Positions 236-38,447 of a DNA stretch of 41,434 nucleotides are shown here, piece by piece. The stretch is taken from assembly GCA_016235675.1 (NCBI GenBank), contig JACRJN010000003.1, forward strand, positions 1 through 41,434, in the 5' to 3' direction. The position numbers were made by a program, and so were the translations under genes. Source of the DNA: Candidatus Schekmanbacteria bacterium. GTDB taxonomy: Bacteria; SZUA-182. The stretch's first letter is position 1. Every line of letters begins with the position of its first letter. Under the pieces are notes generated by a model. It did no database searches, had not been told where the DNA came from, and was given only the letters and a program-made list of their open reading frames with translations.

Positions 236-399
236 CCTGGAGTTCGGGATAAGGTATCAAGGCAATCTATTGTAGGGGCTATAGTTTCCCCGCCCTGGTG
301 GGAATGCGCCATTTACGCACAATTGTACCAAGGGCGGGGAAACTATAGCCCCTACAAGTTTTGTTGCCCGCAACCTTATGAAATTATCCCGAACTCAGG
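236..399. repeat. Nested inverted repeats: GTAGGGGC palindrome inside a CCTGAGTTCGGGATAA pair
   Basis: The inner pair is a perfect 25-bp inverted repeat (271-295 with 332-356) beginning TGTAGGGGCTATAG. The outer pair is CCTGGAGTTCGGGATAA at 236-252 and its near complement at 384-399. The outer end reappears alone at 26857-26875, next to another repeat in the pyrH-frr gap, so it is an independent mobile or duplicated unit. Bases 400-509 are AT-rich with no ORF that I can support. Confidence 0.8.
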
Positions 400-509
400 T
401 TATTAGTTTATTATACCGTTTATAATATGAATTTTCTCTAAATGCCCTGCTTGACAAAAGGAAAAATTTTTGGCAAATTATTACTGGATAAGTTTTAATT
501 TTAATTGTC

Positions 510-638
510 GTAGCTAAAGTTTTGTAGGGTGGGCTGTGCCCACCATTTAAACTATTCCGGGTTGATTTTTGACTGGTATAAATAATGGCAGGGCATCAAA
601 TCTGGTGGGCACAGCCCACCCTACAAAACTTTAGCTAC
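510..638. repeat. 129-bp palindromic element, GTAGGGTGGGC family (family A)
   Basis: A perfect 36-bp inverted repeat (510-545 with 603-638) encloses a 57-bp spacer. Each arm contains GTAG followed by GGTGGGC-TGT-GCCCACC, a strong hairpin. The same unit recurs degenerate at 22525-22620 and as single hairpins at 31779-31799 and 39161-39181, with a half unit at 13639-13651. It ends only 16 bp before the first possible start of the Rrf2-type gene, so it lies in that gene's leader or promoter region. Confidence 0.9.
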
Positions 639-672
639 GTTATTTTGAGGTGTAATGGAAAGAGAGGGATTT

Positions 673-1086
673 ATGGTCATATCACAAGCCACCGAATGTG
701 CTATCCGGGCATTGCTCTATATGGCGGCTTATGAACCGGGACAGGTCGTGAGCAAACGGGATATTTGTCAGGCTCAGGAAATCACCCCCGGATTTTTAAT
801 CAAAATCATGCAGCCGTTGATCGCCGGCGGCCTGGTGAAATCCTACCGCGGGGTTGCTGGCGGTTTCGCCCTTGCCAAACCGATCGGCGAAATTAATCTG
901 TGGGATATTATCGTGGCCGAAGAGGGGCCGATACTCTTAAACAAATGCCTGATTACCCCTGGTTATTGTAAACGTGACGCCACTTGTCCGGTTCACCTGG
1001 TATGGTGTAAATCCAGGGAAGTGCTGGAAAAAACCTTGCGCCAGACTAAACTGGATGATTTGCTGGTAGATAGAGTTGTGGTTTAA
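673..1086 (+). CDS. Rrf2/IscR-family transcriptional regulator, probable Fe-S sensor
   Basis: A small winged-helix DNA-binding protein of the Rrf2 family. Residues 1-60 carry the usual N-terminal helix-turn-helix pattern (SQATECAIRALLYMA, then KRDICQAQEITPGFLIKIMQ), followed by the wing GLVKSYRGVAGGF. With the start at 673 the cysteines fall at 92, 99, 105 and 112. The first three closely match the Cys92/98/104 trio that binds a 2Fe-2S cluster in E. coli IscR, so a redox or Fe-S sensor role is a reasonable inference. I chose ATG 673 because GAGAGGG precedes it and family members start this way. An in-frame ATG at 655 (preceded by GAGGTG) would add six residues. No isc/suf genes are adjacent, so the target is unknown. 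A palindromic repeat lies just upstream and another follows the stop. Confidence 0.88.
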   Translation: MVISQATECAIRALLYMAAYEPGQVVSKRDICQAQEITPGFLIKIMQPLIAGGLVKSYRGVAGGFALAKPIGEINLWDIIVAEEGPILLNKCLITPGYCKRDATCPVHLVWCKSREVLEKTLRQTKLDDLLVDRVVV

Positions 1087-1093
1087 TGTCCTA

Positions 1094-1173
1094 ACGTAGC
1101 GCAGACCTTCAGGTCTGCTCCGGAGTGCCCGTTAAAGCCACCCCATAAGCAGGGCTAAAGCCCTGCGCTACGT
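1094..1173. repeat. 80-bp GTAG-REP pair, CAGACCT/CAGGGCT family (family B)
   Basis: The outer ends ACGTAGCGCAG and CTGCGCTACGT are inverted. Each arm forms its own hairpin: GCAGACC-TTC-AGGTCTGC on the left and GCAGGGCTAAAGCCCTGC on the right. Both read GTAG plus palindrome when taken outward-in. The sequence CTAAGTGAACGGTATT follows and recurs beside other copies. Related copies are at 13541-13626, 22227-22302, 26005-26040 (half), 30212-30288 and 35352-35408. Confidence 0.9.
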
Positions 1174-1188
1174 CCTAAGTGAACGGTA

Positions 1189-1662
1189 TTATCCCAAATC
1201 CAGTGTCTCTATGGATGAAGAGTTGGATTTCCCTTCATTGCTGGGTTTTCCCAACAGGGCGGTCACGTTTTCGCTGCTGCCGCCGCGGCGCATATCGCAG
1301 GTACCTTGGAAGATTACCCCTTCCTCGATAGTTAGGATCGGGGTTTGGATATTACCGTAGACCTCGCCGGTCGATTTGATGTCCACCCGGATTTTGGCGG
1401 TAATATCCCCGCTGATTTTGCCGCTGATCACGATGGTGCCGACATTGATTTCGGCGTTTACGATGGCGTGTTCCCCGACAACCAGGGTATCTTCGGAAGT
1501 AATCTCCCCTTCCAGCTTGCCGTCGATGCGTACCGTTCCTTCGAAAGCCAGTACGCCCTTAAAATTGGTACCTTCTCCTAAAAATGCGTTAATGTCCGTA
1601 TCTCCTTCAAAACGTTTACCTGCGGTTGAGCCGTTTACTTTATTGGGACTGTTGAAAGCCAT
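1189..1662 (-). CDS. Bactofilin (polymer-forming cytoskeletal protein)
   Basis: This 157-residue protein has the bactofilin (DUF583) pattern: a disordered N-terminus, a central block of about 100 residues of short beta strands with regularly spaced Gly and hydrophobic residues (FEGTVRIDGKLEGEI, LVVGEHAIVNAEINVGTIVI, GEVYGNIQTPILTIEEGVIF), and a disordered Ser/Asn-rich C-tail. Bactofilins self-assemble without nucleotide into filaments that scaffold envelope or chromosome-segregation proteins. The gene sits directly downstream of parA-parB on the same strand, separated by a 150-bp gap occupied by a repeat. In Myxococcus, bactofilins BacNOP position ParABS through PadC, which makes a segregation scaffold a plausible inference here. 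AAGGAG precedes ATG 1662. Confidence 0.9.
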   Translation of the reverse strand: MAFNSPNKVNGSTAGKRFEGDTDINAFLGEGTNFKGVLAFEGTVRIDGKLEGEITSEDTLVVGEHAIVNAEINVGTIVISGKISGDITAKIRVDIKSTGEVYGNIQTPILTIEEGVIFQGTCDMRRGGSSENVTALLGKPSNEGKSNSSSIETLDLG

Positions 1663-1685
1663 GTATTATTCTCCTTAAGGATTTT

Positions 1686-1806
1686 TTTAGGCTATAGGCT
1701 CTGGGCTTTGGGCTTTAGGCCGGTATAATAAATTCAGTTGTCCATTAGCTCTTTTTTAGCCTAAAGCCTAAAGCCCATAGCCCATAGCCTATAGCCCATA
1801 GCCTAA
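1686..1806. repeat. GGGCTTTGGGCTTTAGGC inverted repeat (family C)
   Basis: Low-complexity arms built from GGGCTTT/TAGGC-like heptamers (1686-1720) face their complement (1757-1806) across about 35 bp. Two more copies are at 3741-3845 and 7348-7405. Unlike families A, B and E it has no GTAG head. It fills the bactofilin-parB gap. Confidence 0.8.
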
Positions 1807-1812
1807 ATTTTT

Positions 1813-2697
1813 TTACCCCACCTCCAAAACTTGCAGTATCCGATCCAAATCCTCCGCCGAAAAATACTCGATCACAATCCGGCCTTTATTGCCCCTGGAG
1901 GCGGGTTCCAGTTTTACTTTGGTCGCCAGGCGGTGGGTCAGTTGTTCTTGTATGGATTGCAGAATGGCATCCAGCGGCGGTTTAGAAGATTTAGCCGGAG
2001 CGTCTTTTTGATTTTGCTGCAATTTGACGTATTCTTCCGCCTGCCGGACGGATAGCCCCTTTTCCATGATCAGCTTGCAGAGTTTGTGCTGTTCCTGCAT
2101 ACCGCCCAAGGCCAAAATGGCGCGGGCGTGACCGCTGGTTAGCTGGTCATGGCGTAAATGCTGTTGAATTTCCGCCGGAAGCTTCAATAATCTTAAGCTG
2201 TTGCTGACGGTGGAGCGATCTTTGCCCACCATCTGGGCTAATTCTTCCTGGCTGCAATCGGCGATTGCCAGTAAATTCTGATAGGCCAGCGCTTCTTCCA
2301 TGGGATTTAAATTCTCCCGCTGGATATTTTCCACCAGCGCCATTTGCAAACCCTGCTTTTCTGTAGCTTTGGTAACGATGGCCGGAATCGTCTGCCAGCC
2401 GGCTTTTTTGGCTGCCCGCAAGCGCCGCTCTCCGGCGATTAACTCATAACCGCTATCCGATTTCTGTACGACAATGGGTTGTAAAATTCCCGCTGTGGCA
2501 ATAGACGCCGCTAAGCCTTCGATACCGGCATCGTCAAAATCCTGACGCGGCTGCCAGCGGTTAGGCTGAATTTCGTCTACGGACAGATGATATATGACAT
2601 CTCCGTCCACGTTTTTAATTTCAGGTTCTGCCGATTCTTCTTCCGGTCCGGTTGGGATTAAGGCGTCCAGACCCCGCCCCAATGTTTTTTTAGCCAC
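1813..2697 (-). CDS. parB: Chromosome partitioning protein ParB
   Basis: ParB is the parS-binding CTP-switch clamp that spreads on DNA next to the origin and drives segregation with ParA. Of 294 residues, the N-terminal arm GRGLDALIP is typical. The CTP-binding motif GERRLRA is at 89-95 and ENIQREN at 123-129. A helix-turn-helix ([20 protein letters not shown]) spans about 149-168, followed by [10 protein letters not shown] and a C-terminal dimerisation tail. The start is GTG at 2697, overlapping the 3' end of parA by 8 bp, which indicates translational coupling. I searched by eye for a canonical parS near the gene and did not find one. Confidence 0.96.
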
Positions 2698-3451
2698 GGG
2701 CTATGACCTCCTCGGCCAGTTGAGAGTAAGCAATCGCTCCCTTGGATGAAGCATCGTAAAGCGGAACCGGTTTGCCGAAACTCGGAGCCTCGCTTAAGGC
2801 TACATTGCGCGGGATGATTACGGAAAAAACCTTTTCTTGAAAATAACGGCGCACCTCGTTGACCACCGCCTGTGACAGGCTGGTGCGCACATCGTACATG
2901 GTAAGCAGTACGCCCTCCAGATGCAGCGACGGATTGAGCGCTTTTTTAATCAGACGAATGGTGTTGAGTAATTGGGTAATCCCTTCCAGGGCATAGTATT
3001 CGCACTGGATGGGAACAAGCACGGTATCGGTGGCGGTGAGGGAGTTTACCGTCAATAATCCTAACGATGGGGGGCAATCGATGAGGATATAATCATATTT
3101 GTCATCCAGCTTGCCGATAGCGGTCTTTAAAATATACTCACGACCCTTTTGCCCCACCAGTTCAATCTCTGCGCCGATTAATTTATTGTGAGCGGGAACT
3201 AAATCCAAATTGGGGAGATTGCTTTTGCGGATAACGCCCGATAAAACACATTTACCCAACAATACTTCGTATAGGGTGTCGCTGTCGGCTTGCGCCCGGC
3301 AGCCTAATCCGCTGCTGGCGTTCCCCTGCGGGTCCATATCCAACAATAAAGTTTTATAACCCAGCAAAGCCAGATAAGCCGCCAAATTAACCGCTGTAGT
3401 GGTTTTACCCACCCCGCCTTTTTGGTTGGCGACGGTAATGATTTTTTTCAC
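2690..3451 (-). CDS. parA: Chromosome partitioning ATPase ParA (Soj type)
   Basis: ParA is the Walker-type ATPase partner of ParB. The deviant Walker A motif KGGVGKTT is at residues 11-18, with DMDPQGNAS at 38-46 and IDCPPSLG further on, as in Soj/ParA. The open frame extends to 3508, but I prefer GTG 3451. It gives the family-standard N-terminus [13 protein letters not shown] and is preceded by AAAAGGTG with a 7-nt spacer. The upstream minus-strand region has a TTGACT box at 3527-3522 and a loose GCTAAT -10 box at 3506-3501, with a short 15-bp spacing, so the promoter call is weak. It is the first gene of parA-parB, with bactofilin probably co-transcribed. Confidence 0.95.
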
Positions 3452-3624
3452 TTCTGTACACCTTTTTATGTCGGGATTAAGATAATTTTCAATCTTTGAG
3501 ATTAGCAAAGATATAGGGGAAAGTCAACTATAAACAATAGAGAAATCGGCTTGTGATCTGGCGGTATCAATATGATTTATGAAGCAATTTAAAATCTCTA
3601 ATCGCCACAAAGCTTAATAAATAC

Positions 3625-3653
3625 TTGACTTAAAGATCGATTGAAGCTATATT
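3625..3653 (+). promoter_or_regulatory. Sigma-70-type promoter for the glycosyltransferase block
   Basis: TTGACT (3625-3630), a 17-bp spacer and TATATT (3648-3653) match the consensus at 5/6 and 5/6. The predicted transcript starts near 3660 and has a leader of about 200 nt that includes a family C palindrome before the first gene. The remainder of 3452-3859 is AT-rich intergenic sequence with no ORF that I can support. Confidence 0.6.
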
Positions 3654-3740
3654 CAGGGCATAAGGCATTTATCTATATTTATTGATATGTTATGAAATCC
3701 CGAAGAAACTAAGGAACTTAGAAATTTCGATTATACCATA

Positions 3741-3845: not shown

Positions 3846-3859
3846 TTAGTGAAGTAAGA

Positions 3860-12704: not shown

Positions 12705-12757
12705 GTAGTCTAAAGCCCTTTAGGGCTGATCTTCCGGGGCTAAAGCCCCGGCACTAC
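12705..12757. repeat. Short GTAG-REP pair (family E, 53 bp)
   Basis: GTAGTCTAAAGCCCTTTAGG at the left opposes CGGGGCTAAAGCCCCGGCACTAC at the right. Each arm is a hairpin headed by GTAG. It lies just after asnB and could act as a transcript 3' end. The rest of 12651-12918 holds a purine-rich AAAGGAGGAAAG at about 12770 with no start codon near it, and no ORF that I can support. Confidence 0.8.
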
Positions 12758-12947: not shown

Positions 12948-13019
12948 GACTGCCTTAATTGCCCTAGCCAATTGCTTGGCTGTTTTATTATCACGTCTTT
13001 TATAGGAGGAATACATAAG

Positions 13020-13469
13020 ATGGTCGGGTTTGGTCAACACTTGATGGTTGATGGCTATGGGTGTAACCCGCAAAAACTTCAAGACATTAATTTGATATAC
13101 GGCTTACTGGAAGAGCTTCCGGAAAACATTGATATGCACAAAATAATGCCTCCCTATGTGTTTCGTTACGAAGGGTTAAAGCCTGAAGATTGGGGCATTT
13201 CCGGTTTCGTGCTTATCGCGGAAAGCCACATTAGCATCCATACCTTTCCCGAAAAGGGTTACTTGAGCCTGGACATCTTTTCCTGCAAGAAGTTTGAAAT
13301 GGAAAAGGCAATGAGTTATGTGAAGGAAGCTTTTGAAATCAAGACCTTCGAAAAAAATCTGCTCAATCGCGGCCTGGAGTTTCCCAAGGATATTGGCATG
13401 TCACGACGTGTAGTTACTAAAGATCGCATCAGAGTGATTGACGGTGGAAAGGTCGAAGCTTGTTATTAA
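13020..13469 (+). CDS. speD: S-adenosylmethionine decarboxylase proenzyme, prokaryotic SpeD
   Basis: SpeD decarboxylates SAM to the aminopropyl donor used for spermidine synthesis. The proenzyme cleaves itself between E68 and S69 in AESHISIHTFPE, turning the Ser into a pyruvoyl cofactor. S69, H74 and C89 keep exactly the 5- and 20-residue spacings of the catalytic Ser63/His68/Cys83 of Thermotoga SpeD. At 149 residues it is slightly longer than minimal class 1b enzymes. I start at ATG 13020, preceded by AGGAGGA; a further upstream ATG (12972) would add 16 unusual residues before this ribosome-binding site. A terminator follows, so it may be transcribed alone, although the two genes downstream are also polyamine genes. 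Confidence 0.95.
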   Translation: MVGFGQHLMVDGYGCNPQKLQDINLIYGLLEELPENIDMHKIMPPYVFRYEGLKPEDWGISGFVLIAESHISIHTFPEKGYLSLDIFSCKKFEMEKAMSYVKEAFEIKTFEKNLLNRGLEFPKDIGMSRRVVTKDRIRVIDGGKVEACY

Positions 13470-13492
13470 GAATTTGAAGTATAATATTCATT

Positions 13493-13528
13493 AAAAAAAG
13501 GCGGCGGATTTTTCCCTCGCCTTTTTTT
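13493..13528 (+). terminator. Rho-independent terminator after speD
   Basis: AAAAAAAGGCG (13493-13503) pairs with CGCCTTTTTTT (13518-13528) across a 14-nt loop and ends in seven T. It begins 24 bp after the speD stop codon. Confidence 0.8.
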
Positions 13529-13540
13529 ATTTTTGGGTAT

Positions 13541-13626
13541 GTAGCGCAGACCTTTAGGTCTGCCTCCCCACCTAGTCAAACATGGATGTCACGTTCGAAG
13601 AAAGCAGGGCTAAAGCCCTGCGCTAC
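13541..13626. repeat. Family B GTAG-REP pair
   Basis: GTAGCGCAGACCTTTAGGTC at the left and the GCAGGGCTAAAGCCCTGCGC hairpin ending CTAC at 13626 at the right form an inverted pair of two hairpins. GTCTTAA follows immediately, the TTAA-type flank seen at other copies. A half family A hairpin, CAGCCCACCCTAC, follows at 13639-13651. All of this lies between the speD terminator and the deoxyhypusine-synthase-like gene. Confidence 0.88.
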
Positions 13627-13674
13627 GTCTTAAATCAACAGCCCACCCTACTTTTATATTCGGAGGGATGAAGA

Positions 13675-14700
13675 ATGTCAAAGTACTTACATACGCCGGT
13701 CGATCCGCCGAAAGTTACGGATTATAACTTAAGCGGCCTGGTTCAGGCTATGGGGAAAACCGCTTTTCAGGGACGGAATGTAGCCAAAAGCGTGGAAGTC
13801 TGGCAGAATATGCTGGAGGATAACGTTACCATCCTGCTGGGATTGGCCGGGGCTATGGTACCGGCGGGGATGCGCCGGATCATCGTCTATTTGATTGAAA
13901 ACCGGCTGATTGATTGCCTGGTCGCTACCGGCGCCAATCTGTTTCATGATTGCCATGAATCCTTAGGCCGCTACCATTGGCAGGGCTCGCATCTGGCGGA
14001 TGATACTGCCTTGCGGGAAGAGATGGTCGACCGTATTTATGATGTCTTTGCCTCCGATCTGGATTTCCAGCAAACCGATCATTTTATCGCCGATTTTGCT
14101 GCCGGTCTTCCGCAGGATAAGCCTTACACCACCCGCCATTTTCTGTATCTTCTGGGGCAGGAGTTGAACAAGACAGGTAAAGAGAATGGGATATTGACCG
14201 CGGCGGCCCGCGCCAATGTCCCGGTTTATTGCCCGGCGGTGGGTGATTCCTCAATCGGTATCGCCATGGCACTCAATCGGGTAAAGGGTAAATGTAATTT
14301 CCAGTTCGATGTAATCCAGGATGTTGTCGAAACCGCCCAATTGATTTATAAGACCAACGCCAGCGGCGTAATTTATGTCGGCGGCGGCACTCCCAAAAAT
14401 TATATCCAGCAAACCGAGGTCACCGCTTATCTGATGGGACATGAGACACAAGGGCATAAATACGCCCTCCAGATTACCGCCGACGCTCCTCAATGGGGTG
14501 GCTTGAGCGGTTGCACTTTCGAAGAGGCTCAATCCTGGGGCAAAATCTCCGCCAAAGCCATGAAGGTTTCTCTTTTTGCCGACGCCACTATTGTATTGCC
14601 TTTGATCGTCAACGCCCTGGCCGAGCAAGCCGAAGAAAGCATTAAAAACCGTACCAAGCCGCAGTTCAAGATTGACCAGGCGGTTTTGGAAGTGGTTTAA
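13675..14700 (+). CDS. Deoxyhypusine synthase-family protein (polyamine transferase)
   Basis: This 341-residue protein belongs to the deoxyhypusine synthase family, NAD-dependent enzymes that move the aminobutyl group of spermidine onto an acceptor. In eukaryotes and archaea the acceptor is a lysine of (a/e)IF5A. Bacteria lack that target, and homologues are thought to make homospermidine or related polyamines. The catalytic lysine is conserved: SWGKISAKAMKV at about 288-299 matches the human SWGKI motif with Lys329, giving K290. ATGANLFHD and the YVGGGTPKNYIQQTE block match the NAD and spermidine sites. CGGAGGGA precedes the ATG. It lies between speD and a speB-like gene, so a polyamine role is well supported, but the exact product is not. 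Archaeal versions are usually named dys. Confidence 0.88.
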   Translation: MSKYLHTPVDPPKVTDYNLSGLVQAMGKTAFQGRNVAKSVEVWQNMLEDNVTILLGLAGAMVPAGMRRIIVYLIENRLIDCLVATGANLFHDCHESLGRYHWQGSHLADDTALREEMVDRIYDVFASDLDFQQTDHFIADFAAGLPQDKPYTTRHFLYLLGQELNKTGKENGILTAAARANVPVYCPAVGDSSIGIAMALNRVKGKCNFQFDVIQDVVETAQLIYKTNASGVIYVGGGTPKNYIQQTEVTAYLMGHETQGHKYALQITADAPQWGGLSGCTFEEAQSWGKISAKAMKVSLFADATIVLPLIVNALAEQAEESIKNRTKPQFKIDQAVLEVV

Positions 14701-14716
14701 ATTGATGAGATTACTT

Positions 14717-14989
14717 TTTACCACGAAGCACACGAAGCGCACGAAGAAAAAATGGTAATTTTAAAAAGCATTATTTAGAACTTATCCGTAAATAAGAGGC
14801 ATCGTTTATCTCCCCCTTTGGCAAAGGGGGATTAAGGGGGATTTTATAATAATGCCTTTACACAACAAGGCTTTTGTTGAAAATTATAAGAAAATCTCCC
14901 CTGTCCCCTCTTTTCCAAAGAGGGGGAAATTATTTACGGATAAGTTCTTAATTTTAACCCTTCGTGATCTTCGTGTGCTTCGTGGTTAA
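14717..14989. repeat. Repeat within a repeat: family G inside family F2
   Basis: The outer pair is family F: TTACCACGAAGCACACGAAG near 14717 against CTTCGTGTGCTTCGTGGTTA ending at 14988. The inner pair is a perfect 18-bp inverted repeat, AGAACTTATCCGTAAATA (14777-14794) with TATTTACGGATAAGTTCT (14931-14948), enclosing CCCCCTTTGGCAAAGGGGG (about 14811-14829) and its partner CCCCTCTTTTCCAAAGAGGGG. This fills the gap before the speB-like gene. Confidence 0.88.
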
Positions 14990-15040
14990 ACAAAAGAAAT
15001 TTACTGTTATCAGATAAAAAATATCTATTAGGAAATTCCC

Positions 15041-15925
15041 ATGAAACTGCTTGAAAAATATCACTGGCTTCCCAACAACTTCCTGGCGTTGCCGGAGGAA
15101 AACAGCAATTGGGAAGACTCAAAAGTCGTGATTTTGCCTCTGCCCTATGAACAGACGACGTCTTATCAGGGCGGTACACGAATGGGGCCGGCGGCGATTA
15201 TCCGCGCCTCGCAGAATGTCGAACTTTACGATTGCGAAATACAGCGGGAGCCTTACCATAATATCGGCATCTACACCTTACCTGAACTGATCGCCGATTA
15301 TTCAAGCTATGAGAACAACCTGGCTCAGATTCAGAACGTAACCGTTATGTTGCTTGAGAGCAATAAATTCCCCGTGGCTTTAGGCGGAGAGCACAGTATT
15401 AGTCTGGGGTTGGTCAAAGCCTTTGCCGCAAAATACCCCAACCTTTCCGTCCTGCAACTGGACGCTCATGCCGATTTGCGGGAAAGCTATCAGGAAACGC
15501 CGTACAATCATGCCTGCGTAATGAGACAAATAATAGAACACGCCCCGGCGGTACAAGTGGGGATTCGCAATCTAAGCCGCGAGGAGGCCGATTTTGCCCG
15601 TGTTCGGGAGCTTGACATCTTCTACGCCCATCAAATTCAGCATGGTTATGACTGGATCGAACAAGCGGTGGAACGACTGGATGAAAATGTCTACCTGACT
15701 ATCGATTTAGACGTTTTCGATCCCTCGATTATGCCTGCGGTGGGCACCCCTGAACCGGGTGGCTTGACCTGGTATCCCGTTTTGGAATTGTTGCGCACTG
15801 TAGCCGAACAACGTAAAATCGTTGGCGCCGATGTGGTGGAGTTGTGCCCCATTCCCTTCCATCCCGCCCCGGATTTTCTGGCCGCCAAGCTGATTTATAA
15901 GTTGTTGGGCTATGTTTTTCCTTAA
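15041..15925 (+). CDS. speB: Agmatinase-like ureohydrolase
   Basis: A member of the arginase/agmatinase family of di-manganese ureohydrolases. All metal ligands are visible: GGEHS with H118, DAHADLR with D141, H143 and D145, and IDLDVFDPS with D222 and D224. The usual agmatinase block MPAVGTPEPGGL follows. At 294 residues it has normal length. Agmatinase converts agmatine to putrescine and urea. With speD and a deoxyhypusine-synthase homologue alongside, this is the most likely activity, but in some archaea a similar enzyme acts on aminopropylagmatine, which fits this neighbourhood too. Arginine decarboxylase and spermidine synthase are not in the window. TTAGGAA precedes the ATG. Confidence 0.9.
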   Translation: MKLLEKYHWLPNNFLALPEENSNWEDSKVVILPLPYEQTTSYQGGTRMGPAAIIRASQNVELYDCEIQREPYHNIGIYTLPELIADYSSYENNLAQIQNVTVMLLESNKFPVALGGEHSISLGLVKAFAAKYPNLSVLQLDAHADLRESYQETPYNHACVMRQIIEHAPAVQVGIRNLSREEADFARVRELDIFYAHQIQHGYDWIEQAVERLDENVYLTIDLDVFDPSIMPAVGTPEPGGLTWYPVLELLRTVAEQRKIVGADVVELCPIPFHPAPDFLAAKLIYKLLGYVFP

Positions 15926-22165: not shown

Positions 22166-22341
22166 GTAGTCCCAGCCCTTTAGGGCTGAAATTCCAGGGC
22201 TAAAGCTAATACTGTTAACTTAAGATGTAGCGCAGGGCTTCAGCCCTGCTTATGTGGTGGCTTTTGCGGGCACCCCGGAGCAGACCTAAAGGTCTGCGCT
22301 ACGTTAAGTGAACGGTATTGGGGCTAAAGCCCTGGCACTAC
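22166..22341. repeat. Family E GTAG-REP pair interrupted by a TTAAG-flanked family B pair
   Basis: The outer family E ends are GTAGTCCCAGCC (from 22166) and GCCCTGGCACTAC (to 22341). Within it, AATACTGTTAACTTAAG (22208-22224) and TTAAGTGAACGGTATT (22304-22319) form an inverted pair, and inside that lies family B (22227-22302). The order shows family E was present first and was split by the B-containing unit. Confidence 0.88.
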
Positions 22342-22625: not shown

Positions 22626-22776
22626 GTAGCGTTTCATTAAAATATGTACATTTAATTGTCATTGCGAGGCAGCTTTATCGCCGAAGCAATCTCGGAAGTG
22701 CCCGGTAGAATCGAGATTGCTTTGCTTAAGCTCGCAATGACAGGTTCTGTACATCATTATTTATGGAACGCTCTAC
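22626..22776. repeat. Family D element inside a GTAGCGTTTCATT pair
   Basis: The outer arms GTAGCGTTTCATTAAAATAT (from 22626) with GTACA, and TGTACATCATTATTTATGGA ending CTCTAC (22749-22776), are imperfect complements. The core at 22658-22741 is family D (GTCATTGCGAGG to CTCGCAATGACA). Confidence 0.8.
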
Positions 22777-22872
22777 TAGCACAGGCTTCCAGCCTGTGTT
22801 TGCAGCGGCTCCAATAGATTCACCGTTTCTGTGTGGGCGTTGCCCACATCACAGGCAAGATGCCTGTGCTAC
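22777..22872. repeat. CACAGGCT GTAG-REP pair (family M)
   Basis: TAGCACAGGCTTCCAGCCTG at the left opposes CACAGGCAAGATGCCTGTGC ending CTAC at 22872. Each arm is a hairpin and the right arm reads as GTAG plus palindrome on the minus strand. A third hairpin, GTGGGCGTTGCCCAC, lies between them. Confidence 0.8.
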
Positions 22873-25941: not shown

Positions 25942-26004
25942 GCAAAACAGCAAATATCTATAAAATATGGCGCAGGGTTTTAGCCCCAATACAGTTCACT
26001 TAAC

Positions 26005-26163
26005 GTAGCGCAGACCCTTAGGTCTGCTCCGGAGTGCTCATACCAATCCGCTATCAAACATTGAAGAATAATTCGTAGCACGGGGGTTTATCCCCCGTTT
26101 GCAGCGCCTGCTTACGGGAGATGAACTCCCGCGCTACATTAATCTTTGATAGCGAATTGGTAT
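26005..26163. repeat. Half family B, then family I inside an ATACCAATCCGCTATCAAA pair
   Basis: Bases 26005-26040 carry only the left half of family B, preceded by CAATACAGTTCACTTAAC. An 18/19-matching inverted pair (26040-26058 with 26145-26163) then encloses a family I GTAG-REP pair (26075-26137) whose hairpins are CGGGGGTTTATCCCCCG and GGGAGATGAACTCCC. The pair may have removed the missing half of family B when it inserted. GTTTCGGCGTGGGGATACGC followed by CGAAAC (26203-26228) is a further palindrome related to 38303-38373. Confidence 0.82.
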
Positions 26164-26282: not shown

Positions 26283-26840
26283 TCAAACCTTCATAATCTC
26301 CGCTTCTTTATGCTGCTCAACCGTCCCAATCAATTTGGTATAGTTATCGGTTATATGCTGAATCTTCTCATGGGAGCGCCGGTGGTCGTCTTCGGAGATT
26401 TCGCCGTCTTTTTCCATCTGCTTGAGCTTATCCATGGCATCGCGGCGAATGTTGCGCAGGGAGACCTTGGCTTCCTCAGCGTACTTTTTGAGCACTTTGA
26501 CCAATTCCCGGCGGCGTTCCTCGGTCAGCGGAGGAATATTGATGCGGATGGTTTTGCCGTCGTTATTGGGAGTTAATCCGAGGTCGGATTTTAGAATCGC
26601 CTTTTCAATCTCCTTGATTTGGGAGACGTCCCAGGGTTGAATCAGGATCGAACCAGGATCCGGAATCGACAGATTGGCCACTTGATTGATCGGGGTCGGG
26701 GCAGCATAGTATAAAACCTTAATCCCCTCTAACAAGGAAATAGAAGCCCGTCCGGTGCGCAGGCTCCCGTATTCTTTTTTTAAAGCGGCTCCGGTCGCCT
26801 CCATCTTTTTTTCAATCTGGCTGTAGAATTGTTCCAGCAT
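26283..26840 (-). CDS. frr: Ribosome recycling factor
   Basis: RRF splits post-termination ribosomes together with EF-G. This 185-residue protein is full length. It has LRTGRASISLLEGIKVLYYA, then PINQVANLSIPDPGSILIQP, then the IRINIPPLTEERRRELVKVL region and the long C-terminal helix IRRDAMDKLKQMEKDGEISE. The start codon follows TTAGGGGAATAATCAT, which includes an AGGGG ribosome-binding site. That same 38-bp stretch exists a second time at the end of pyrH (27041-27078), separated by an inserted repeat. The ancestral arrangement was probably pyrH stop, 4 bp, frr start. Confidence 0.97.
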   Translation of the reverse strand: MLEQFYSQIEKKMEATGAALKKEYGSLRTGRASISLLEGIKVLYYAAPTPINQVANLSIPDPGSILIQPWDVSQIKEIEKAILKSDLGLTPNNDGKTIRINIPPLTEERRRELVKVLKKYAEEAKVSLRNIRRDAMDKLKQMEKDGEISEDDHRRSHEKIQHITDNYTKLIGTVEQHKEAEIMKV

Positions 26841-27078
26841 ATGATTATTCCCCTAATAACCTGAGTTCGGAATAAGAAAAATCGTAGTCCCAGCCCTTTA
26901 GGGCTGATTTTCATGGCAAAGCCATGCAATAACGACTCACAAGTGGTTAAATCTTCTCAAATTAATTCACACCTTTCGGACTGAACATGCCTTTTATTTC
27001 AGCCTTAGGCTGAAAATGCGTGGCTAAAGCCACGGGACTACTGTAGAATTGTTCCAGCATATGATTATTCCCCTAATA
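26821..27078. repeat. 38-bp direct repeat flanking an inserted family E element
   Basis: Bases 26821-26858 and 27041-27078 are identical over 38 bp and diverge on both sides. The copy includes the frr ribosome-binding site and its first seven codons. The pyrH-side copy gives ATGCTGGAACAATTCTACAG then TAG, a seven-codon decoy MLEQFYS. The 182 bp between them contain a family E element (26884-27041) and, on its left, the CCTGAGTTCGG end seen at 384-399. Confidence 0.95.
26884..27041. repeat. 158-bp family E GTAG-REP pair in the pyrH-frr gap
   Basis: It begins GTAGTCCCAGCCCTTTAGGG and ends GCTAAAGCCACGGGACTAC. A second copy of the same 158-bp length lies at 34219-34376 and shares internal sequence (CATGCAATAACGAC, TGGTTAAA, CTTCTCA). 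The shared core shows a defined element, not a chance palindrome. Confidence 0.9.
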
Positions 27079-27784
27079 CTTTGGAGCCGATATGTTCTCC
27101 GCAGATGATACGCTTTATATTGCCGGCTTTGTGTAAACTGAATACTATAATCGGCATCTTGTTTTCCATGCAAAGAGAAATCGCGGTGGCGTCCATGACT
27201 TTCAACCCCTCCTGCAACACCTGAAGATAATTGATCTGCTCATACTTTTTCGCCTGAGGATTTTTCAGCGGGTCAGCGCTATAAATACCGTCCACCTTGG
27301 TGGCTTTCAGGATCACTTCGGCGTTGACTTCCATCGCCCGCAAAGCCGCGGCGGTATCCGTGGTAAAGTAAGGATTCCCGGTACCGGCAACTAAAATCAC
27401 CACCCGTCCCTTTTCCAGATGCCTGATCGCCCGGCGTCGGATGTACAGTTCCGCCAGACGGGGGATTTCGATTGCCGTCATGACCCTGGTGAAAACGCCC
27501 CGTTTTTCCAGGGCATCCTGCAAGGTCAGACCGTTGATGATGGTAGCCAGCATCCCCATATAATCGGCAGCCGAGCGATCGATGCCGTTGACGCTGGCCG
27601 CCACCCCGCGGTAGATATTGCCGCCGCCGATGACGATGGCTAATTCCACACCCATATCACGGATTTGGACGATCTCCTCCGCCAGATATTTAACCACATC
27701 GGGATCGGTGCCGTAGGTTTGCCGGCCTAATAAAGCCTCGCCGCTTAACTTCAATAAAATGCGTTTATATCGGGGTGTGTCCAT
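27065..27784 (-). CDS. pyrH: UMP kinase
   Basis: PyrH phosphorylates UMP to UDP and is a hexameric amino-acid-kinase-fold enzyme. Of 239 residues, [14 protein letters not shown] opens the fold. [15 protein letters not shown] is the glycine-rich loop, [20 protein letters not shown] the UMP region, [19 protein letters not shown] the phosphate and substrate loop, and [13 protein letters not shown] is typical of PyrH. It follows tsf with a 3-bp gap and was originally almost contiguous with frr. The last codons overlap the 38-bp direct repeat (27041-27078). Confidence 0.97.
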
Positions 27785-27787
27785 TCC

Positions 27788-28384
27788 TTACGCCCCTAAT
27801 TTGTAACGGGTAAAGCGTTTTACGACAATATTCTCTCCCAATTTAGCGATTTTTTGCACGATTAAATCTTTAACCGTACAACTTGCTTCTTTAATATAAG
27901 GCTGTTCCAGCAGGCAAACCTGGGCGAAAAAGCCCTTTTCCAGCTTGCCTTCGATGATTTTATCGACTATTTGTGCCGGCTTTCCGGAATCGGCGAACTG
28001 AGCCTGGTAAATTTCCTTTTCCTTGGCGATTACATCCGCCGGAACATCTTCTTTGCCGACATAAGACGGATCGGCTGCGGCAATCTGCATACAAATTTCT
28101 TTGCACAATTCCTGAAAATCATCGGTGCGGGCGACGAAATCGGTCTCGCAATTGATTTCCAGCAGCACGCCGATTTTCCCGCCGCCGTGGATGTATGAGG
28201 TAACCAGCCCTTCCGAGGCCGCCCGCCCGCTTTTCTTGGCTGCCGATGCCAGGCCGCGCTTGCGCAGGTAATCGATGGCTTGCGACATATCGCCGGCGGT
28301 TTCCTTTAACGCCTGTTTGCATTCCATAATTCCACAGCCGGTCTTTTCCCGTAATTCCTTTACTGCATCGGCTGATACTGACAT
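27788..28384 (-). CDS. tsf: Elongation factor Ts, short form
   Basis: EF-Ts exchanges GDP for GTP on EF-Tu. From ATG 28384 the protein has 198 residues. The N-terminal UBA-like domain is VKELREKTGCGIMECKQALK. The core contains ETDFVARTDDFQELCKEI with the TDFV motif that inserts into EF-Tu. The length matches the short Thermus type rather than the 283-residue E. coli type, lacking one core subdomain. An ATG three codons upstream (28393) is nearly in contact with GGGAGGGA; 28384 has better spacing and a family-like MSVSADAVKELREKTG start. The usual neighbour rpsB is upstream, but about 250 bp of repeats separate the two. Confidence 0.95.
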   Translation of the reverse strand: MSVSADAVKELREKTGCGIMECKQALKETAGDMSQAIDYLRKRGLASAAKKSGRAASEGLVTSYIHGGGKIGVLLEINCETDFVARTDDFQELCKEICMQIAAADPSYVGKEDVPADVIAKEKEIYQAQFADSGKPAQIVDKIIEGKLEKGFFAQVCLLEQPYIKEASCTVKDLIVQKIAKLGENIVVKRFTRYKLGA

Positions 28385-28431
28385 GGTTTTCATTCCCTCC
28401 CTATATTAATTTGCCTAAAATTTATCAGATT

Positions 28432-28620
28432 GTAGCATTGGGGTTCATCCCCAATACAGTTCACTTAAGCTCCTTCTCCCTTTGGGAGAAGGTTGGGATG
28501 AGGGTACAAAAGTTTTAAAAAAACTTAATTATGGTACCCTCACCCTCACCCTCTCCCAGGGGGAGAGGGAACTTTAAAAATGCCTTAAGCTAACGCTTAT
28601 GGGATAAACCCCCGCGCTAC
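28432..28620. repeat. Family I pair split by a CTTAAG-flanked CTCCTTCTCCC element, inside the rpsB-tsf operon
   Basis: The outer ends are GTAGCATTGGGGTTCATCCC (28432 on) and GGGATAAACCCCCGCGCTAC (to 28620). Between them CTTAAG at 28464-28469 and 28583-28588 bracket a long inverted repeat, TCCTTCTCCCTTTGGGAGAA against CTCTCCCAGGGGGAGAGGGA, with GAGGGTAC/GTACCCTC inside. The left junction is AATACAGTTCACTTAAG, the recurring flank. Confidence 0.85.
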
Positions 28621-28631
28621 TCCGGATGAAT

Positions 28632-29648
28632 TTAAGCCGCCTGGGTACTCTCTACAGACTCAGGCGTAGCTGTTGGAGCAGGCTCCTTAGGCGCTGTTTT
28701 GGGGGCTTTGGATTCGGCAGTGGCTTGCCCGGCGGGTTTGCCTTCTCTTCTGCCTCTTCCGCCCCGACCTCTTCTGCGCTCACCGCCCCTATCGCCCCGA
28801 TCACCTCTATCGCCTCGTTCGCCTCTGACCGGTTTTTGGGGTCTTTCCTTCTTTTCCTCTCCGGTTTTGCTTTCCGCTTCCTGCTTGGCTCTGACTTCCA
28901 CCCGTTTGGCGAATTCTTCTTTTCCCGCTAAAATAGTATCGGCGATTTTGCCGACAATTAAATTAACCGAACGAATAGCATCATCATTGCCGGGGATAAT
29001 ATAATCGGCATCCTGAGGGTCACAATTGGTATCCACCAGGGCGATGATCGGAATATCCAGTTTTTTAGACTCATGCACCCCGATTTTTTCCCGGCGTAAG
29101 TCAACGATAAAAACCGCTTTGGGCAGTTCGGTCATTTCTTTAACGCCGCTTAATACTCTTTCCAGCTTTATCTGCTCTTTATCCAGTTTCGCCGCCTCTT
29201 TTTTGGGCAGAGCATTATAAACGCCGTCCGCTTTCATCGTTTCCAATTGTTTGAGATGATTGACGCTTTTGCGGATGGTGGCAAAATTGGTTAAAGTCCC
29301 GCCCAGCCAGCGGTGGGTCACATAGTAAGCGCCGCAGCGTTGTGCTTCCTTTTCGATAACGCTTTGCGCCTGGCGTTTTGTGCCGACAAAAAGTACCGAA
29401 CCGCCATTGGCGGCCACTTCATACACAAAACTTATGGCGTTCTTTAAGCAGCGCACAGTTTTTTGTAAATCTATAATATATATCCCGTTGCGCTCGCCAA
29501 AGATATATTTTTTCATTTTGGGATTCCAGCGTTTGGTCTGGTGACCAAAATGAACCCCCGATTCCAATAACTCCTTCATCGTAACATTGACCAACTTCTT
29601 TTCCTCCATTTCGGGTTTTGCCGCCATTCCTTTCTTTTCCATTACCAC
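28632..29648 (-). CDS. rpsB: 30S ribosomal protein S2 with Arg/Gly-rich C-terminal extension
   Basis: The S2 core is clear: [20 protein letters not shown], then [20 protein letters not shown], then [36 protein letters not shown] and [20 protein letters not shown]. The core ends near residue 254. From 255 a tail of 84 residues follows. Its first part has [15 protein letters not shown] from residue 275 then [11 protein letters not shown]; the rest is Ala/Pro/Thr/Glu-rich. Typical S2 proteins have no such tail. The start is uncertain: GTG 29648, ATG 29642, or TTG 29594, which has GGAGG 8 nt upstream and gives the family-standard [10 protein letters not shown]. It is the first gene of the operon. 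Confidence 0.93.
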
Positions 29649-29941: not shown

Positions 29942-30188
29942 ATGTTGACTTAAGGCGTAGCGTTGGGGTTCATCCCCAACAACAGACGCAGAAACCTTGC
30001 GGTGGAAGCGGGGGATAAACCCCAATGCTGTTGACTTAAGGAATTGTCATTGCGAGGCGGCCTTATCGCCGAAGCAATCTCAAACGCACGGAACTAGAGA
30101 TTGCTTCGCTCCGCTCGCGATGACATATACGTGAACACCTTCAAAAATTTCTTAAGTCAACAGCATTGGAGATGAACCCCCGCACTAC
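29942..30188. repeat. Three-level nest: family I, TTAAG pair, family D
   Basis: The outermost family I GTAG-REP pair runs from GTAGCGTTGGGGTTCATCCC (29957) to ACCCCCGCACTAC (30188). Within it a perfect 19-bp inverted pair, CCAATGCTGTTGACTTAAG (30022-30040) with CTTAAGTCAACAGCATTGG (30151-30169), encloses family D (30046-30124). Outside family I, GTTGACTTAAG (29944-29954) and AACTTAAGG (30194-30202) may be a fourth level. The 667-bp gap 29649-30315 has no supportable ORF. Confidence 0.9.
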
Positions 30189-30211: not shown

Positions 30212-30288
30212 GTAGCGCAGACCTTTAGGTCTGCCCTGCTTATAGGGCCGAACGTTACGTCCGGGGCAGGGCTAAAGCCCTGCACTAC
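30212..30288. repeat. Family B GTAG-REP pair before the HEAT lipoprotein gene
   Basis: GTAGCGCAGACCTTTAGGTC at the left opposes GCAGGGCTAAAGCCCTGCAC ending CTAC at 30288, with GTTAAT following. It ends 27 bp before the next start codon. Confidence 0.85.
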
Positions 30289-31778: not shown

Positions 31779-31799
31779 GTAGGGTGGGCTGTGCCCACC
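31779..31799. repeat. Solitary family A hairpin between convergent genes
   Basis: GTAG then GGTGGGC-TGT-GCCCACC forms a 7-bp GC-rich hairpin only 5 bp after the HEAT gene stop and 10 bp from the mrcA stop. It may serve as a shared bidirectional transcript end, although no long T run follows. Confidence 0.7.
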
Positions 31800-34200: not shown

Positions 34201-34218
34201 TAATTAGTTCCTTGTATC

Positions 34219-34376
34219 GTAGTCCCAGCCCTTCAGGGCTGATCTTCATGGCGTAAGCCATGCAATAACGACACACAAATGGTTAAAGCTTCTCAGCTAT
34301 AATTCAAGTTTTCCAGATAAACATACCTTTAGTCTCAGCCTAAGCTGAAAATGCGTGGCTAAAGCCACGGGACTAC
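34219..34376. repeat. 158-bp family E GTAG-REP pair upstream of mrcA
   Basis: It begins GTAGTCCCAGCCCTTCAGGG, ends CTAAAGCCACGGGACTAC, and has the same length as the copy at 26884-27041. Solitary GTAG hairpins follow: 34382-34405 (family I, minus orientation) and 34433-34457 (GTAGGGGC type). Confidence 0.9.
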
Positions 34377-34472
34377 ATTCTGTTAGGGATAAACCCCAAC
34401 GCTACATTAAGGCAACAGCATGAGCATAACTTGTAGGGGCGAACCTTGTGTTTGCCCAGCCTTCAAACCTAT

Positions 34473-35585
34473 TTATATTTTCCTGACGGTTTTCTTTTTA
34501 GCGCTTTTCCGCTTGGCGGGAGGCGTCGGTAAGGCGGTCTTTTTACTCTCGGCCTCGATCGTGTCCTGTAGGCGTTTTATGCGGCGGGCGACTAATTCTT
34601 TATTCGGATAAGTGTCTTTTATCTGGTTATAGCTTTCCAGGGCGTCTTTATTTTCACCAAAATTTTCCTGCACCAAGGCCAGTCCCATCCAAGCCTCGGT
34701 TAAAGATTCATGCTGAGGAAATTCCCGAATAATTTTTTGATAATATTCCCGCGCTTTGGTATAATCCTTATTCATAAAACAGGTTTCGCCCATAAATAAA
34801 TAAGCTTTGGCCAAAAGCGGGCTTTTCGGATAATTATCAATCAGATACCGGGCTTCGACCAGTGCCTGCTGCGGGTCTCCCAAGTGAGCATAACAATTGG
34901 ATATAGCCAGTTGCGCCTCAGCCGCTTCCGGCGCTTGGGGGAAATGATCGATTAATTCCTGATATTTTAGAATAGCTTCCTGCTTTTCGTTAAAGGTATC
35001 CTGAAAAATGGTTGCCACTTTCCAATAACTTTTTAATGCCAGAGGATGATTGGGGTAATCCAGGGTGATGGTTTCAAAATTTCTTACCGCCTCTTTAGGA
35101 TTATTTAAATATAAAAGATTTATATCCGCCATCCAAAACAGGGCTTGCACCTTGGTTTCCGGATTATTGTTTTTCCCGGCGATGATTTGATATTGCTGCA
35201 AGGCTTGCTGATAGTCGCCTTTAGCCAAAAAATCGGCCGCGATCTTCATCTCATCCACTGACTTATGGCTACAGGAGGATATGAGCCAGAGGGATAACAG
35301 GAGAAAATAATATTTAATCCCGCTTGTCAGGGTCTTTCGGCTGAAAATGTCGTAGCGCAGGGCTTTAGCCCTGCCTCCCCAGGCAGCAGACCTAAAGGTC
35401 TGCGCTACATTTTTATGATTTTTGATGTCCCGAAGGGACACCAAGAAACATAAAAGCGTCATTGCGAGCGGAGCGAAGCAACCTCCGTTCGTGCGGCTGA
35501 GATTGCTTCGGCGATACGGCTGCCTCGCAATGACACTTCCAGCCGAAACACCCGTTGATGGGTTTGAAGTCTTGCCCCCGCTCAT
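34473..35585 (-). CDS. TPR-repeat lipoprotein (BamD/YbgF-like) with a repeat-derived N-terminal extension
   Basis: The conserved part starts at about residue 90: a lipoprotein signal [15 protein letters not shown] with Cys105, then about six tetratricopeptide repeats ([60 protein letters not shown] and similar) and a Lys/Arg-rich C-tail. This layout resembles outer-membrane assembly or Tol-Pal-associated lipoproteins, but it is not specific enough to name. The only in-frame ATGs are far upstream. The frame opens at ATG 35585, overlapping the gyrA stop by 4 bp, then reads through a family D element (about residues 18-43) and a family B element (about 60-79). Either a non-standard start near 35320 is used or the insertion has damaged the gene. 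Confidence 0.75.
35352..35534. repeat. Family B and family D elements inside the 5' part of the TPR gene
   Basis: Family B spans 35352-35408 and family D spans 35458-35534. Between them TGTCCCGAAGGGACA is another palindrome. The block is flanked by CAGCCGAAA (minus strand TTTCGGCTG) at 35336-35344 and its complement at about 35541-35549, suggesting an outer unit of about 210 bp. Confidence 0.85.
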
Positions 35586-38026
35586 TCTTCTTCCTTTTCC
35601 ACTTCCACTTCCGGTTCCGCCAGTTGGGCGATGGCTACGACTTTATCCCCCTCATCCAGGTTTTGCAATTTAACCCCCTGGGTATTGCGCCCGATGGTGG
35701 AAATCTCCTTGACCGCCATCCAGATTAATGTACCGTTGGCGGTAATCAGCATAATGGTGTCTTCAAGGGCGGTTTGTTGGATTCCGATAATGTCGCCGGT
35801 TTTGGGCGTTATGCGCAGATTGATCACTCCCTTGCCGCCGCGGCGTATGACCGGATATTTAGCCAATTCCGTTTGTTTGCCGTAGCCAAACTCGGTAACG
35901 GTCAAAATAGTGGTCTGCGGCTCGGTTACCTCCATGCCGATCACCTCATCTCTGGGGGAGAGACGGATCCCCTGGACTCCCCGTCCGACGCGGCCGATAG
36001 AACGGACATCCTCTTCCTTGAAGCGGATGCTCAGGCCAAAACGGGTGGCGATAAAAATATCCTGCTTGCCGTTGCTCAGTTGGACGCTGATCAAACGGTC
36101 GTTTTCTTCCAGATTGATGGCGATAATTCCGGCCGGGCGCGGGCGGCTGTATTCATCCAGCCGGCTTTTTTTGATGATACCGCTTTTGGTACACATGATA
36201 ATATATTTATCCGGGGAAAATTCCTTGATCGGGATTACCGCGCTGATTTTTTCCCCTTCGCTCAAGGGCAGAAGATTGATGATGGCCGTGCCTTTTGCCT
36301 GGCGGCTGGCTTCCGGTATGGCATGTACCTTCAGCCAATAAATCCGGCCTGCATCGCTGAAAAACAATAAATAGGCGTGGGTAGAGCAGACAAACAGATG
36401 TTCGACAAAATCGGTTTCCTTGGTGGTGACCCCTTTGGCGCCGTGTCCGCTGCGTTTTTGCAGGCGATAAAGCCGCAGGGGATTGCGCTTGACATATCCC
36501 TGGCGGGTGATGATGACCACTGCCTCCTCATCGACAATCAAATCTTCCAGCTTAAGATCGGCCTCTTCCGGGATAATCACGGTGCGGCGCGGGTTGTCGT
36601 AGCGTTCTTTAACCTCGATCAATTCCTCTTTAATCAGATTCATTAATAAGTTATCGCTGCCTAAAATGGCCTGCAAGCGGGCGATGAGCATCAACAGTTC
36701 TTTATGCTCTTCGTGAATTTTATCTTGTTCCAGAGCGGTCAAACGTTGCAGACGCATCTCCAAAATGGCCTGGGATTGGAGGGCGGACAGGGCGAATGTG
36801 TCCATCAACCCTTGTTTGGCGATCGCCGGGGATGCCGATTTTTTAATCAGGGCGATCACCGCATCCAGGTTGTCGAGGGCAATCTTCAATCCTTCCAAAA
36901 TATGCAGACGCTCCTCGGCTTTTTTCAGTTCATAGTTGGTGCGCCGCTCCACCACTTCGCGCCGGTGCTTGAGGTATAACACCAGGGTGTCTTTCAGATT
37001 CAGGATGCAGGGGCGCTTGTCGACAATCGCCAGCATGATCACCCCAAAGGTGGTTTGCATCTGGGTGAGTTTGTAGAGATTGTTTAAAATGACCTGGGCG
37101 ATTTCGTTGCGCTTGAGTTCGATGACGATGCGGGTTCCTTCGCGGTCGGATTCATCCCGCAGGTCGGAGATGCCTTCCAGGCGCTTTTCTTTCACCAGTT
37201 CGGCGATTTTTTCCACCAACTTGGCTTTATTGACCTGGTAGGGGATTTCGCTGACCACGATCCGGGTCTTTTCCTTCTTTTCCTCCACCACGGCATTGGC
37301 ACGCACTTGTATCAGCCCCTTGCCGGTGGTATAAGCGTCTCTAATCCCCTGATAGCCGTAAATATAAGCCCCAGTGGGAAAATCCGGGCCTTTTATGGCC
37401 TGCATCAGTTCCGGGATGGTGGTTTGCGGATTATCGATGAGCATAACCAGTCCGTCGATCACCTCGCCCAGATTGTGCGGGGGGATATTGGTGGCCATGC
37501 CTACCGCGATACCCGATGAGCCGTTGATCAGCAAGTTGGGCAGTTTGGCCGGTAATACGGTGGGTTCTTCCAGCGATTCGTCGAAATTGGGGGCAAAATC
37601 CACCGTCTCTTTATCCAAATCGAGCAGCATCTGTTCGGTAATCCCGGCTAGGCGCACCTCGGTATAACGCATGGCCGCCGGAGCGTCGCCGTCCATCGAA
37701 CCGAAGTTCCCCTGACCGGCGATCAATGGATAACGCAGGGAGAAATCCTGTACCATGCGGGTCAAGGCGTCATAAACCGCGATATCACCGTGAGGATGAT
37801 ATTTACCCAGCACTTCGCCGACCACGCGGGCCGATTTTTTGTAAGGCTTATTCCAGAGCAGCCCCAAGTCGTGCATGGCGTAGAGGATGCGGCGGTGTAC
37901 CGGTTTTAAGCCGTCCCGCACATCAGGCAGCGCCCGGCCTACGATCACGCTCATGGCATAGTCGATATATGATTTTTTCATCTCATCTTCAATGTTGACC
38001 GGAATTTTCCTTGTGTCTTGCATCAA
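35582..38026 (-). CDS. gyrA: DNA gyrase subunit A
   Basis: GyrA is the breakage-reunion subunit of gyrase. The 814-residue protein has the active-site Tyr121 in AAMRYTEVR, the full winged-helix and tower domain, and a six-bladed C-terminal domain. The GyrA box appears as IRRGGKG at 727-733, which supports gyrase over topoisomerase IV ParC. The acidic tail [11 protein letters not shown] resembles those of other GyrA proteins. In the quinolone-resistance region [10 protein letters not shown], the residue matching E. coli Ser83 is Ile82, while Asp87 is kept as D86. GGGAGA precedes the ATG. The stop overlaps the start of the TPR ORF by 4 bp. gyrB is not in the window. Confidence 0.97.
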
Positions 38027-38213
38027 ATCTCCCTTTTATGTTCTTCAAATGTAATTGATATAAGCGGATATTATGGAGGGCAGCGTCAAGCCGATTGAAA
38101 TTTTTTCAAGGGAATTATCGCAATATTTTAGGTTTTCGTCAAGGGGTATCGCGATAAAACCACGATTTTCAAGGGAAGATGCCGGCATGATTAAAAAGAT
38201 AATATTTTTACGG

Positions 38214-38243
38214 TTGCATCGCAATGAAAATTTACTTTATACT
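38214..38243 (+). promoter_or_regulatory. Possible promoter for the downstream methyltransferase
   Basis: TTGCAT (38214-38219), an 18-bp spacer and TATACT (38238-38243) form a weak -35 and good -10. A repeat block lies between it and the gene, so the leader would be about 215 nt. The rest of 38027-38213 looks like the gyrA leader with no gene. Confidence 0.35.
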
Positions 38244-38272
38244 AGGCATGTAATGCCAAGTTGCGTTCAAAA

Positions 38273-38447
38273 ATGTAGTTACCTGATTTATCAGGTTTGA
38301 TGTTTCGGTGTGTCTCACGCCGAAACTAACAAGGGGCATCTTTATGGTTTCGGCGTGAAACACGCCGAAACATCCGAAACATCCGAAAGATGTAGTTACC
38401 TGATTTATCAGGTTCTTTCTGCCCAATGAATTGGGCAACTACATCTT
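38273..38447. repeat. GTAGTT palindromes with inserted GTTTCGGCGTG hairpins (family K)
   Basis: ATGTAGTTACCTGATTTATC with AGGTT occurs at 38273-38297 and again at 38390-38414. The second copy is paired with GCCCAATGAATTGGGCAACT followed by ACATC. Between the copies sit two palindromes, GTTTCGGTGTGTCTCACGCC with GAAAC and GTTTCGGCGTGAAACACGCC with GAAAC, related to 26203-26228. The last arm ends about 17 bp before the methyltransferase start. Confidence 0.82.

Follow-up and report, generated by a model that had tools for sequence, protein, structure and literature searches.

GTAG-headed REP pairs in a Candidatus Schekmanbacteria genome and the putative IS4-type elements that carry one of their families

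The genome studied here is that of Candidatus Schekmanbacteria bacterium (assembly GCA_016235675.1, label G000), which is 89.65% complete and fragmented into 190 contigs. We analyzed its contig C182 (JACRJN010000003.1), a stretch of 41,434 nucleotides that we refer to as the window, together with a 535-kb subset of the genome and pattern counts across the whole of it. The subject is a set of hairpins headed by the tetranucleotide GTAG, i.e., repetitive extragenic palindromes (REPs), and the enzymes that may have moved them, either REP-associated tyrosine transposases (RAYTs) or the transposases of insertion sequences (ISs). Most of the REPs lie in inverted pairs, known as REP doublets forming hairpins (REPINs) or bacterial interspersed mosaic elements (BIMEs), and part of them lie between terminal inverted repeats (TIRs). 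The repeats of the window, with families given by letters and their arms numbered, are the following.

524 to 624, no strand assigned: D-D inverted pair of GTAGGGTGGGCTGTGCCCACC.
1096 to 1171, plus strand: A REPIN with A1 arm GTAGCGCAGACC and, on the minus strand, A2 arm GTAGCGCAGGGC; remnant of an IS4-like TIR at the right end alone.
12705 to 12757, plus strand: short B REPIN, H arm GTAGTCTAAAGCCC with B3 arm CCGGGGC.
13541 to 13626, plus strand: A REPIN (A1-A2).
22166 to 22341, plus strand: short B REPIN, its second stem split by the TIR element at 22207-22320.
22207 to 22320, minus strand: 114-bp TIR element TAATACTGTTAACTTAA..TTAAGTGAACGGTATTG, with the A REPIN 22227-22302 as its body.
22197 to 22206, no strand assigned: left copy of the 10-bp target duplication GGGCTAAAGC.
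22321 to 22330, no strand assigned: right copy of the 10-bp target duplication GGGCTAAAGC.
22849 to 22872, minus strand: E1 arm GTAGCACAGGCATCTTGCCTGTGA.
25987 to 26037, plus strand: solitary IS4-type TIR CAATACAGTTCACTTAA, followed by an A1 arm from 26005.
26075 to 26137, no strand assigned: C REPIN (C3-C2).
26860 to 27041, plus strand: left TIR CCTGAGTTCGGAATAAG and long B REPIN (B1 at 26884, B2 end at 27041), between frr and pyrH.
28432 to 28455, plus strand: C1 arm, overlapping at 28452 a TIR-like CAATACAGTTCACTTAA, between tsf and rpsB.
29957 to 29980, plus strand: C1 arm GTAGCGTTGGGGTTCATCCCCAAC.
30023 to 30168, no strand assigned: 146-bp TIR element CAATGCTGTTGACTTAA whose body is an inverted pair of the TGTC type, inserted into a C-type palindrome.
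30212 to 30288, plus strand: A REPIN (A1-A2).
31779 to 31799, plus strand: solitary D arm.
34219 to 34376, plus strand: long B REPIN (B1-B2) with no outer TIR.
35352 to 35408, minus strand: short A REPIN in the over-long 5' part of a predicted TPR-protein open reading frame (ORF), probably intergenic and ahead of the likely lipoprotein signal of the ORF.
38275 to 38296, plus strand: solitary F1 arm.
38392 to 38442, plus strand: F REPIN (F1-F2).
39161 to 39181, plus strand: solitary D arm.

The window contains 29 hairpins headed by GTAG, vs. 0–5 (mean 1.8) in 10 dinucleotide shuffles, and over the 535 kb GTAG was the most enriched of the tetranucleotides adjoining perfect hairpins (187 vs. 16.1 expected). 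An earlier note on this DNA had given 13 starts at which GTAG runs into a palindrome (524, 1096, 12705, 13541, 22166, 26075, 26884, 28432, 29957, 30212, 34219, 35352, and 38275), and all of them proved exact. Its statement that such repeats occupy nearly every intergenic gap went too far: a GTAG repeat was found in 12 of the 22 gaps longer than 60 bp. Nearly all the copies of the window are intergenic. The pairing of arms in inverted orientation was confirmed, heads-out pairs being common and of fixed lengths. A search of the window against Rfam gave no match. GTAG stands directly or a few bases 5' of the palindrome above chance, and the copies are many, intergenic and in inverted dimers, which is what characterizes the GTAG REP superfamily. 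The hairpins are genuine REPs in inverted pairs.

The stems that the earlier note had taken for unrelated families are largely the two arms of one element, and we sorted about seven families: A (stems GCAGACC and GCAGGGC), B (CAGCCC with CGTGGC, CCGGGGC or CCAGGGC), C (GGGG, loop TTYAT), D (GGTGGGC), E (CACAGGC), F (ACCTGAT and GCCCAAT) and G (GGGCGGGG). Exact counts over the whole genome were 186 for A, 185 for D, 168 for E, 161 for B1 and 33 for F1, and the reversed-pattern control gave 0 for all of them. That the hairpins arose by chance or are an assembly artefact, to which the division into 190 contigs might point, has practically no probability, refuted as it is by the counts against shuffles and by the reversed controls. 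In a comparison of nine genomes of the class, A was present in G001 (same class, other family) with 129 copies, and B1, D, E, and F1 had zero copies in the other eight.

Within a family the pairs keep to set lengths, most A pairs measuring 76–78 nt heads-out, short B pairs 52–53 and most long B pairs about 158. The choice of partner was strict as well. The partner of A1 was always A2 (14 of 14; about 2e-5 if pairing were random), and B1 or its H variant was paired with B2, B3, or B4 in 30 of 30 such pairs. Heterodimers are known for several REP families (PMC3733652). The A pairs of G001 are homodimers (18 inspected). At its loci L194–L211 these are 52-nt REPINs with conserved outer flanks, possibly parts of a larger host element. 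The idea that heterodimers serve to avoid a single long hairpin fits the two-hairpin folding of short B (17 of 18) and F (4 of 5), and the G001 homodimers always fold as one hairpin; it fails for A, where 9 of 14 form a single long hairpin.

Many A REPINs are enclosed by the 17-bp TIRs CAATACNGTTCACTTAA...TTAAGTGAACNGTATTG, in elements of 114–115 bp in total. About half of the A pairs are the body of such an element: among 14 sampled A REPINs, and by the pattern used, six had the TIR on both sides and three on one side. We gathered 38 TIR elements from the 535-kb sample plus 61 exact 16-bp TIR sites genome-wide, and 16 of them had exact target duplications, 15 of 10 bp and one of 11 bp. Flank identity over 10 nt was 0.737; with partners shuffled 1000 times it was 0.444, and 0.524 at most. 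This signal is strong at length 10 alone; at 8, 9, 11, and 12 nt the excess is gone or barely at the shuffled maximum. The target consensus is centred on TTAAA, and eight of the 38 elements sit in REP-like palindromes. That insertion sequences target REPs is known (Tobes and Pareja 2006, cited in PMC3733652). Two TIR elements (L072 and L236) have a TGTC-type pair as their body and no GTAG, and are flanked by exact duplications nonetheless, which ties the duplication to the TIR rather than to the REP. Transposition of the HUH/Y1 type is not known to duplicate its target. Because of the 10-bp duplications, the TIR-bounded A elements are not classed as inserted by a RAYT. A CTTRA motif 5' of the A and B1 heads (25 of 81 vs. 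a background of 3%) was considered as a RAYT cleavage mark; for A, the inner end of the TIR is the better reading.

The intergenic position of nearly all copies in the window would also suit hairpins that the host retains to terminate transcription or to stabilize mRNA, their number then reflecting selection and not mobility. We give this very little credence. In several families the copies are alike across entire elements of 52–204 bp, spacers included, copies are nested in one another, and four of the five counted families are missing from the other eight genomes.

A pointer to the origin of the TIRs came from a Streptomyces plasmid, reached via a weak plasmid match. There, an element of 1450 bp has ends (CAATACCGTTCAGTTAA and CAATACCGTTCAGTTAG) near-identical to the TIRs of the A elements and is bordered by a 10-bp duplication (GGGCTAATGC); its open frame of 479 residues has the domains Nterm_IS4 and DDE_Tnp_1. 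In Novosphingobium, a copy of this end lies directly next to an IS4-family transposase gene. Since the Streptomyces IS4-family element has matching ends and the same type of duplication, the A-bearing elements are, judging by sequence, best read as IS4-type miniature inverted-repeat transposable elements (MITEs) with a REPIN as body, and A would have spread here, in part at least, in this form. Like IS4-family ISs and MITEs, they have 17-bp TIRs and a 10-bp target duplication; they differ in that the body is a REP pair or TGTC-REP pair and not the remains of a transposase gene. We found no mention of the TIR sequence in the literature, and viral contigs searched for an autonomous IS gave chance single matches only.

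Several observations weigh against the IS4-type reading. By the pattern used, five of the 14 sampled A REPINs lacked the TIR, so RAYT mobility or decay must account for this remainder. The TIR and duplication signature was not seen in D, F, G, and short B, and a check of the flanks for direct repeats gave no duplication signal for short B, D, or F. Finally, no IS4-related transposase and no autonomous copy was found in 607 kb of this genome, the whole of which was not searched.

The earlier note had attributed the repeats to RAYTs and had placed no RAYT gene in the window; indeed, contig C182 gave no Y1 match. Elsewhere in the genome Y1 transposases are present: we found one copy of IS200 (C54), three RAYTs (C67, C172, C185), and a fragment (C78). 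With GTAG enriched as well, the condition that the note had set for its own refutation does not hold. A further fragment match on C124 (12.5 bits) was disregarded. E-type repeats flank two of these genes. The RAYT on C67 sits among E-type GTAG repeats, and that on C172 (7214–7645, L190), overlooked by PF01797 and detected by NF047646, has on its flanks the E stem CACAGGC in a version headed by GTGG. The C185 RAYT (L002, L188) lies between TTTCGGCCTG..CAGGCCGAAA palindromes without a clear GTAG REP, and is similar to the RAYTs with flanking TIRs (TIRYT) described in Di Nocera 2013 (PMC3733652). For families A, B, C, D, F, and G, the assembly (89.65% complete) yielded no cognate RAYT.

We then turned to other bacteria, taking one genome per species over 84,980 species, which yielded 80 relatives of the RAYT of G003. 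A GTAG hairpin was found within 300 nt of 66 of the 80, GTAG ranking first among tetranucleotides (mean 13.7). An A2 23-mer identical to that of this genome flanks RAYTs L147, L152, and L166 in other bacteria, and an identical A1 23-mer flanks RAYT L117 in another. The B1 core is present on both sides of RAYT L110, and RAYTs flanked by D-like and G-like repeats were found in G006 and G003; none flanked by C or F was found in any genome. G001, which represents a sister genus, has a relic of about 57 residues from the C-terminus of a RAYT, with an A2 arm some 45 nt further on. On a tree of the 80 RAYTs and five others, many forks of which are unresolved, the flanking stem type changes 26 times vs. 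44–53 times in 200 label shuffles. Of the two possibilities raised by the earlier note, several RAYTs therefore fits better, and a single enzyme with relaxed specificity for all stems is disfavoured by the tree and by the distinct loops and heads. At another locus (L093, 1431–3173, G002 C83), a RAYT-like domain lies in-frame within an ORF of 581 residues that resembles a DNA methyltransferase, with GTAGAGCCTGCT hairpins on the flanks.

The RAYT reading of the REPs is thus partly supported. It stands insofar as RAYTs exist in the genome, two of which have E-type REPs on their flanks, and RAYTs elsewhere lie beside identical or similar REPs; it falls short as a whole explanation, with no cognate here for six families and with many A and 18 long B pairs inside TIR elements. 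One could still hold that RAYTs copied every GTAG repeat, those of A among them, as ordinary REPINs, and that the flanks resembling TIRs are a preferred palindromic target. We consider this improbable in general and strongly disfavoured for the TIR-bounded copies, given that 16 of the 38 elements, GTAG-less ones included, have exact duplications outside their TIRs, which HUH transposition is not known to make, and that an IS4-family element has the same ends and duplication. Its best arguments are that the RAYT clade elsewhere bears A arms, that heads-out pairs at the RAYT loci of this clade are heterodimers in 41 cases and homodimers in two, as A and B are heterodimers here, and that REP dimers inside palindromes have been described (Di Nocera 2013, PMC3733652), the idea of a palindromic target coming from Anabaena and Halothiobacillus.

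The explanation we favour, and regard as probable, is that the REPs were born with RAYTs and that the A family later moved as the body of an IS4-type MITE. The arms would have evolved as substrates of several different RAYTs (TnpA-REP) over time. The A family may then have passed to a second mover, its A1–A2 pair becoming the body of a non-autonomous IS4-type TIR element of about 114 bp. A DDE transposase of the IS4 family, acting in trans on the CAATACNGTTCACTTAA ends, would have multiplied it with a 10-bp target duplication, the TTAAA-like target lying sometimes within REP palindromes. The more general proposal, that REP pairs can switch movers (a heterodimeric REPIN made by a RAYT, the RAYT lost, and the pair captured as the body of an IS4-type MITE that lands also in REP palindromes), we hold with even odds. 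If true, it would explain REP dimers in conserved palindromes and REP families that persist without a RAYT.

The repeats share with the GTAG REPs, REPINs, and BIMEs associated with RAYTs (PMC3733652, PMC3116915, PMC3686654, PMC8266576) the GTAG head, a stem of 6–9 bp and a short loop, as well as intergenic location, heads-out dimers, several families per genome, heterodimers, and families without a RAYT. They differ in that the arms of A and B pairs are always unlike here, and in the TIR elements around many A and 18 long B pairs. GTAG-15 of Anabaena variabilis and CGTC-1 of Halothiobacillus neapolitanus are similar cases of a REP dimer within a longer conserved inverted repeat (PMC3733652); that paper interprets the palindromes as targets and nowhere uses the term “target site duplication”, whereas here the 10-bp duplications mark the outer repeats as TIRs. 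Earlier reports of orphan REP families (abundant, with no RAYT) and of REP dimers in longer palindromes left the cause unsettled, and for one large family the target duplications offer a concrete answer, a DDE-type MITE carrier. If this is general, the number of REPs is no direct measure of RAYT activity. The near-absolute difference between arms (41 of 43 pairs, RAYT loci of one clade) bears on how RAYTs recognize two ends.

Long B elements lie in a TIR of a second type. We found 18 copies within a common outer TIR (CCTGAGTTCGGGATAA), 202–204 bp overall, so that the REPIN-in-TIR arrangement probably arose twice. An exact 7-nt direct repeat bordered five of 13 copies of this CCTGAG TIR element, a signal that is weak vs. 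shuffles (7–8 bp examined). The window element at 26860–27041, without a right outer TIR, is flanked by a 38-nt direct repeat corresponding to the start of frr (26821–26858 and 27041–27078), far longer than the 7–10-bp duplications elsewhere.

The earlier note had left the headless families for another explanation. One of them can be assigned to the TGTC/CGTC type of REP: GTCATTGCGAG (GTCATTGCGAGG)..GAAGCAATCTC, with inverted dimers at 22658–22740 and 30046–30123 and 179 copies in the genome (≤2 mismatches), has a [CT]GTC head and AT at the stem base. In its head with a TGTC variant and its inverted dimers it is like the CGTC/TGTC superfamily (PMC3733652), and it is different in doubling here as the body of IS4-type TIR elements. 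Two further headless repeats of the window are CACGAAG runs (14718, 22117, 24350) and CCCCCTTTGGCAAAGGGGGATTAAGGGGGATTT (14806, 39255).

As for the genes of the window, repeat elements intervene in the rpsB-tsf-pyrH-frr cluster (26283–29648) at rpsB/tsf and at pyrH/frr. Homologues of deoxyhypusine synthase are uncommon in bacteria; at 12972–15925, genes for S-adenosylmethionine decarboxylase, a deoxyhypusine synthase-like protein, and an arginase-family protein are adjacent.

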